From assembly GCA_021163245.1 (NCBI GenBank), contig JAGGXB010000067.1:1-34111 (forward strand): a stretch of DNA of 34,111 nt. Direction: 5' to 3'. A program made the translations under genes and the position numbers. Shown in pieces: positions 5,125-13,376 of this stretch (positions are counted from its first letter, which is position 1; each line of letters begins with the position of its first letter). This DNA comes from Thermoproteales archaeon (GTDB lineage Archaea > Thermoproteota > Thermoprotei > Thermofilales > Thermofilaceae). A model generated the notes under the pieces. The model did no database searches and was not told where the DNA came from. It saw only the letters and a program-made list of their open reading frames with translations.

Positions 5125-5180
5125 TTTTCTCAGTTCACCTCCTTCACATCACTACTCAGAAAATTTAACTCATCATTCAA
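5125..5180 (-). ncRNA. Candidate box C/D sRNA with anti-16S-tail guide
   Basis: Read on the minus strand, the order is box C ATGATGA (5170-5176), 10-nt guide (5160-5169), box D' CTGA (5156-5159), a 3-nt spacer, box C' GTGATGT (5146-5152, last base off consensus), 12-nt guide (5134-5145) and box D CTGA (5130-5133). The spacings fit an archaeal box C/D sRNA. The second guide is GAAGGAGGTGAA, whose core complements UCACCUCC at the 3' end of 16S rRNA. The same core would be a perfect Shine-Dalgarno site for the decayed gene starting at 5124. No strong terminal stem is present, so this is a candidate only. Confidence 0.45.
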
Positions 5181-13003: not shown

Positions 13004-13312
13004 ATGCAAGAAAAAAAGAAAAGAGGAGTAAAAGGACTAAATATAACAAAACTTCCATATGAAGTAAAAGTTTACATGAACAACCAAGTATTAATACCAG
13101 CTCAACTTATTAGAAGTCTTGGACTTACAGATGCTACTTATTCGAGAATTAAATTTAAATATCGTGATAAAACATTTGAGATCGAGGTTAAACTTTTAAG
13201 AACAAAATATACTGATTCTCGTCAATTTACAATTCCTAAGGAAATAAGAACAAAGATTAGATTATTACCCGGAAATACCATAAAAATTTTGGATATCCAA
13301 AAAATTAAATAA
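13004..13312 (+). CDS. Tandem AbrB/SpoVT-type DNA-binding protein, 102 aa
   Basis: Two copies of the swapped-hairpin AbrB motif are visible: NQVLIPAQLIRSLGL (about residues 27-41) and RQFTIPKEIRTKIRLLPGNT (about 73-92). The second is a textbook match. Each has the strand, 'IPxxIR' and loop pattern of AbrB/MazE half-domains, so one chain may form the whole fold that usually needs two. A basic N-terminus (EKKKRGVKG) should help bind DNA. The likely role is transcriptional regulation; no toxin gene is adjacent, so it is not an obvious antitoxin. The ATG at 13004 is close to a TATA box and has no clear ribosome site. The stop codon lies one base before the terminal stem of the box C/D RNA downstream, so both may come from one transcript. 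Confidence 0.75.
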   Translation: MQEKKKRGVKGLNITKLPYEVKVYMNNQVLIPAQLIRSLGLTDATYSRIKFKYRDKTFEIEVKLLRTKYTDSRQFTIPKEIRTKIRLLPGNTIKILDIQKIK

Positions 13313-13376
13313 ATGTGCCCGATGATAATGGTACAAAGCTCTGAAAATGATGAAACCGCTACACAATGAGGGCATG
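13313..13376 (+). ncRNA. Box C/D guide sRNA with terminal stem
   Basis: The elements are: 5' stem strand TGTGCCC (13314-13320), box C GATGA (13321-13325, first two consensus bases off), a 15-nt spacer with guide (13326-13340), box D' CTGA (13341-13344), box C' ATGATGA (13347-13353, perfect), a 12-nt guide AACCGCTACACA (13354-13365), box D ATGA (13366-13369, variant of CTGA) and 3' stem strand GGGCATG (13370-13376). The stem closes directly on boxes C and D, as a kink-turn needs. The order, spacing and stem strongly support an archaeal 2'-O-methylation guide. The second guide would pair with UGUGUAGCGGUU; the target is unassigned. Whether it is made from its own promoter or from the tandem-AbrB transcript is unclear. 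Confidence 0.82.

Follow-up and report, generated by a model that had tools for sequence, protein, structure and literature searches.

Mass spectrometry of Sulfolobus acidocaldarius tRNA-Gln(UUG) has shown a methylated wobble nucleotide, Um34, and snoRNAdb, as cited in the same study, contains an earlier prediction of a box C/D RNA that guides to U34 and G18 in this tRNA (PMC7668247). Two other groups of archaeal C/D RNAs are close in kind, both as summarised in a review (PMC7994747). The sR50 / pre-tRNA-Trp intron C/D RNA of Pyrococcus and Haloferax (Cm34, Um39) directs both of its guides to one tRNA, the wobble position included, and is encoded in the intron of its own target. The tRNA-targeting C/D sRNAs of Pyrobaculum (Lui et al. 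2018) guide methylation at wobble position 34 of single tRNAs; by the review's description, the tRNA is matched by one of their two guides, and the second lacks a target.

The window, i.e., the whole stretch of DNA analyzed here (34,111 nucleotides), comes from an archaeon belonging to the Thermofilaceae or close to them and contains, at positions 13314-13376, what is almost certainly a real box C/D sRNA. Its predicted target is the same tRNA and the same wobble U34 as that of the S. acidocaldarius guide, and the second site lies likewise in the D-arm/D-loop; there, however, the second site is G18, whereas here G18 falls at the ninth base and the second site is U13. As in sR50, both guides fit one tRNA and the wobble position is included, but the window sRNA is a separate gene behind an AbrB gene and fits a different tRNA. 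Guidance of position 34 in a single tRNA is shared with the Pyrobaculum sRNAs, from which it is set apart, following the description in the review, by having both guides on the same tRNA. The family is a conserved counter-example to these one-guide tRNA-directed RNAs, the tRNA-Trp intron RNA being the dual exception known from the review (PMC7994747). A further difference concerns the order of the guides: in Pyrobaculum-like and f13 genomes and in G139 the guide for U34 of tRNA-Gln stands before box D with a different first guide beside it, whereas in the window sRNA the D' guide faces U34 and the D guide the D-arm. The Rfam family sR14 (RF01145) is alike in box layout, but its guides are unrelated. 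Guidance of U34 in tRNA-Gln(UUG) is therefore already known in kind. The literature searched appears to contain no description of U34 and U13 combined in one sRNA, of the U13 site or of the AbrB linkage, and the window sRNA adds a dual guide for U34 and U13 with its own conserved gene position.

Anatomy, conservation and terminal k-turn

All parts of the sRNA are on the + strand. The 5' strand of the terminal (k-turn) stem (TGTGCCC, 13314-13320) pairs with the 3' strand (GGGCATG, 13370-13376) over seven contiguous pairs, two of which are G-U, and the stem covaries in relatives. The G at 13321, between stem and box C, is by sequence geometry and known k-turn anatomy the putative first base of a 3-nt bulge. 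It is followed by box C (ATGATAA, 13322-13328; consensus RUGAUGA, position 6 changed), the 12-nt D' guide TGGTACAAAGCT (13329-13340), box D' (CTGA, 13341-13344), a spacer AA, box C' (ATGATGA, 13347-13353), the 12-nt D guide AACCGCTACACA (13354-13365) and box D (ATGA, 13366-13369; consensus CUGA). All four boxes are present in order. Box C and box D are each one base off consensus; that box C deviates too, and that its deviating position 6 faces the odd base of box D in the k-turn, goes beyond the earlier note. An earlier note on this DNA had listed the same C' and D' boxes, an exact 12-nt second guide and the seven-pair stem, and had called the case strong in spite of box D reading ATGA. All of this was read again here, with both guides exactly 12 nt long; AUGA is a frequent form of box D in this family, present in 7 of 26 homologues, and the sRNA has it in common with six other genomes of the class.

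Energy folding of the sRNA (z -0.40) is uninformative, as expected for a C/D RNA. A search of the sRNA against Rfam returned no family at gathering score; the best weak match, to the C/D family sR14, scored 21.6 bits where the cut-off is 38, and the sRNA is not assigned to it. A sequence model built from 26 homologous sequences (this sRNA included) matches the window at this one place, with an E-value of 6e-14; E-values of this kind come from models partly built on the matched sequences, and the covariation tests described below are the stronger evidence.

BLASTN similarity to relatives spans query positions 32-75, i.e., window 13321-13364, which is the C-to-D core only. Two BLASTN matches over the D' guide, L006 and L007, were dropped because of an apparent reading frame there. 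A sequence-only model made from seven homologues found matches in families f1-f7 of the order and in f8, f11 and f12 of the class; the whole C-to-D core is kept in f1-f7, f8 and f11. When 398 genomes of the phylum were searched with the 26-sequence model, strong matches were also obtained outside the class, and those with both guides, inspected base by base, belong to f18, f37, f39, f46 and f47. Altogether, related genomes with the sRNA number about 30, and it also occurs in several families beyond the class; one of the homologues lies at G008:C2:1733897-1733946. Boxes and guides are conserved in these relatives, as is characteristic of an archaeal box C/D sRNA, and the guides are the most conserved bases of the family.

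The stem and the boxes were also compared for covariation, with boxes and flanks placed by eye, a bias towards pairing, and with shuffles that leave the relatedness among the sequences in place. In the four pairs next to the boxes, 80 of 104 were standard pairs across 26 homologues, whereas 5000 shuffles of the 3' flanks among species averaged 50 and never exceeded 65. Position 6 of box C and position 1 of box D (C6:D1) read G-C in 18, C-G in 8, U-A in 4, G-U in 1 and A.A in 4 of 35 homologues, i.e., 31 standard pairs, where 5000 shuffles gave 23 at most. All 35 sequences have the sheared G.A pair, and 32 have the A.G pair. Stem, 3-nt bulge and tandem G.A pairs together make up a terminal k-turn, in which the window sequence itself carries A.A at C6:D1 as one of the four such sequences; its k-turn may be somewhat weaker for this, which could weaken the D half. 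Box D is CTGA in at least nine homologues and degenerate in many relatives (ATGA, CAGA, CGGA, CCGA). Since the C6:D1 pairing is kept across homologues, with AUGA sometimes compensated in box C, AUGA is regarded as a variant of the family. The comparison with relatives that the earlier note had called for thus came out in its favor: boxes and stem are conserved, and they covary beyond the shuffles.

Guide complementarity to tRNA-Gln

Judged from complementarity, tRNA-Gln is very probably the target of both guides. Among the 32 tRNA genes of the own genome, the best partner of the D' guide is tRNA-Gln(UUG), and the best two of the D guide are tRNA-Gln(CUG) and tRNA-Gln(UUG). The fifth base of the guide stands opposite U34 for D' and opposite U13 for D. 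Shuffled guides reached the observed tRNA-Gln scores in 4 of 1000 cases for D' and 2 of 1000 for D, and never for both. A guide left open in the earlier note now has a concrete predicted target: the 12-nt targets were searched in rRNA and tRNA as it had suggested, and tRNA-Gln was found, with no comparable site in the rRNA of complete relatives or in the own partial 16S. For one and the same tRNA, two modified bases are thereby predicted, and the archaeal family concerned is cultivable.

The D' guide pairs with positions 31-36 and 38-40 of tRNA-Gln(UUG), in a duplex of 6 bp, a mismatch opposite G37 and 3 bp, and by the N+5 rule sets wobble U34 at the methylation position; the sRNA is likely to methylate this base. 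As 172 of 1000 shuffled D' guides (17%) match the D' score against some tRNA, the assignment needs the comparison with relatives. There, an A opposite U34 and unbroken pairing over 31-36 were found in every core-family genome from which tRNA-Gln(UUG) was retrieved. The D' guides of f12 either match exactly over ten bases or are paired throughout with two G-U. The guide of G022 reads CAGAGC and fits the anticodon CUG, a UUG-to-CUG switch on the guide side. An exact search with the D' target gave one further place in the own genome, C116:407, taken as chance.

One base of tRNA-Gln, at position 37 or 38, has no partner in the D' duplex of most genomes. The tRNAs for codons starting with C carry m1G37 in S. 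acidocaldarius and other archaea (PMC7668247). It is a guess that the unpaired base 37 might reflect a base-modified G37, with the guide acting after that methylation.

The D guide pairs with the D-arm of tRNA-Gln(UUG) at 10-19 (9 bp) and of tRNA-Gln(CUG) at 10-20 (10 bp), and U13 is, with somewhat better than even confidence, a predicted methylation site. The sole perfect match to the D target in the own genome is the sRNA itself; with up to two mismatches there are 73 places, one of them in a tRNA, namely tRNA-Gln(CUG). In all core-family genomes tested the D guide pairs with the D-arm over 7-11 contiguous bases. The methylation position falls on U13 in most relatives; in three g7 genomes and in G004 it falls on A14, and in G023 on G12 (G009 unscored). 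In G017 a T at position 16 of tRNA-Gln (a C16U change) is matched by an A in the guide, and in several genomes C or T at position 20 is matched by G or A. These joint changes at positions 16 and 20, together with the G022 guide, are counted in favor of tRNA-Gln as the target; guide and target have coevolved at both the anticodon and the D-arm. The literature searched yielded no report of Um13 in a tRNA; this absence is weak evidence.

In f12 (L138, L139, L159) the D' guide for U34 is kept, exact or with G-U only, and the D-arm guide is gone. The tRNA-Gln(UUG) of f12 has an extra base in the D-loop (TAGCTGG).

AbrB linkage, proposed mechanism and rival explanations

The gene upstream of the sRNA (13004..13312, + strand) is an ORF of 102 aa with a tandem AbrB/MazE-like DNA-binding domain (PF04014 just above the cut-off) and is the presumed host transcript. 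Its stop codon is TAA at 13310-13312 and the sRNA stem begins at 13314, directly behind it, as the earlier note had it. An AbrB orthologue lies directly upstream on the same strand in 13 genomes, the window included; the 12 others are G001, G003, G004, G006, G009, G011, G013, G017, G022, G023, G024 and G026. Excluding G003, for which the linkage alone was seen, box C begins 5-42 nt behind the stop codon in most of these genomes and 149 nt behind it in G004; in G013 box C itself contains the stop codon. The linkage shows that a C/D RNA can remain attached to one protein gene across several archaeal families. Genus g6 has other genes upstream, and there, as in other families, the sRNA occurs without an adjoining AbrB gene.

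Location at the 3' end of an ORF, without an own promoter and with release from a longer transcript, is usual for C/D sRNAs by the account of the review (PMC7994747). Processing from the AbrB transcript is probable for the window sRNA as well, and the gene order in 13 genomes supports, without proving, the earlier suggestion that the sRNA derives from the 3' end of this mRNA. A scan for bacterial-type promoters and terminators, blind to archaeal promoters, gave no signal.

The explanation proposed, with good confidence as a whole, is that of a dual-guide box C/D sRNA for U34 and U13 of tRNA-Gln, cut from the AbrB mRNA. It starts from the computed features, namely the anatomy, the conservation, the k-turn covariation, the guide-target complementarity with its two-sided changes, and the AbrB linkage. 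The sRNA would be transcribed with the tandem-AbrB gene, released from the 3' end of its mRNA or from read-through, and protected as a C/D sRNP with L7Ae, Nop5 and fibrillarin. The D' guide would then bind the anticodon loop of tRNA-Gln(UUG) for 2'-O-methylation of wobble U34, and the D guide the D-arm of both tRNA-Gln isoacceptors for 2'-O-methylation of U13.

Of the other explanations the strongest, though unlikely, is that only the D' half guides methylation, at U34, with the D guide serving chiefly to anchor or unfold the tRNA and with U13 left unmethylated. Boxes D' and C' are near consensus, in contrast to the degenerate box D of many relatives; beside box D, two bases stay unpaired in several D guides, and the spacing varies in g7; and f12 has lost the D guide and kept an exact D' guide. 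On the other hand, the C6:D1 covariation and the invariant G.A pair place the terminal k-turn under selection, U13 stands at the fifth base in most genomes, and the CTGA form of box D persists in the homologues counted above. Guidance of rRNA methylation, for example in the 16S 690 region, is very improbable. The D target UGUGUAGCGGUU does resemble the bacterial 690 sequence, but in complete relatives the best rRNA score is 7 per guide versus 10 for tRNA-Gln with the D guide and 7.5 with the D' guide, no rRNA site is shared among relatives, and the own partial 16S has no site for the D guide with up to two mismatches; the own rRNA covered is part of the 16S and the 3' end of the 23S only (the window ends within the 3' part of an archaeal 23S gene), which makes the exclusion of rRNA incomplete. 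The 690 region was therefore rejected as the D target. The earlier note had itself doubted it and had suggested that the target may lie elsewhere, in agreement with the fit of both guides to tRNA-Gln.

About equally improbable is a role without guiding, as a k-turn regulatory element in the 3' UTR of the AbrB mRNA that binds L7Ae. The linkage to AbrB in 13 genomes would suit such an element, but the sRNA persists without AbrB in g6 and other families, and the guides are the bases best conserved and follow tRNA-Gln. Chance resemblance to a C/D RNA could be invoked for short boxes in an AT-rich genome with unremarkable folding energy; it is refuted by the conservation, with covariation far above the shuffles, and its probability is negligible. 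Beyond the dual-guide explanation preferred here, it is a tentative possibility that the sRNA docks on the D-arm and the anticodon loop of tRNA-Gln at once, producing Um34 and an undescribed 2'-O-methyl U13, and that it may chaperone pre-tRNA folding and tie wobble modification to the expression of an AbrB-type regulator.

Related sRNA candidates

In the class family f13, L174 (G049) and L164 (G074) have the guide for U34 of tRNA-Gln before box D. The first guide of G049, AATGGTAGCCA, before CTGA, pairs with GGCUACCA at the 3' end of tRNA-Gln and sets U72 at the methylation position; a monomethylated U72, unassigned, has been reported for tRNA-Gln(UUG) of S. acidocaldarius (PMC7668247). Weaker model matches, L165 (G022), L163 (G063), L172 (G065), L175 (G045), L166 (G075), L212 (G139) and L214 (G151), look like sister sRNAs. 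By eye, the guides of these candidates fit U34 of Glu(UUC), G34 of Tyr(GUA), G34 of Cys(GCA) and U34 of Lys(UUU).

Two further places in the window resemble C/D sRNAs. On the - strand, 5130-5176 is a C/D-like string with all four boxes and a guide GAAGGAGGTGAA, for which no convincing rRNA target was found, and which may be chance. On the + strand, positions 1-47 at the start of the contig hold another candidate C/D sRNA, whose first guide forms 11 pairs with the 23S sequence AACTCGGCAAATT in two relatives.
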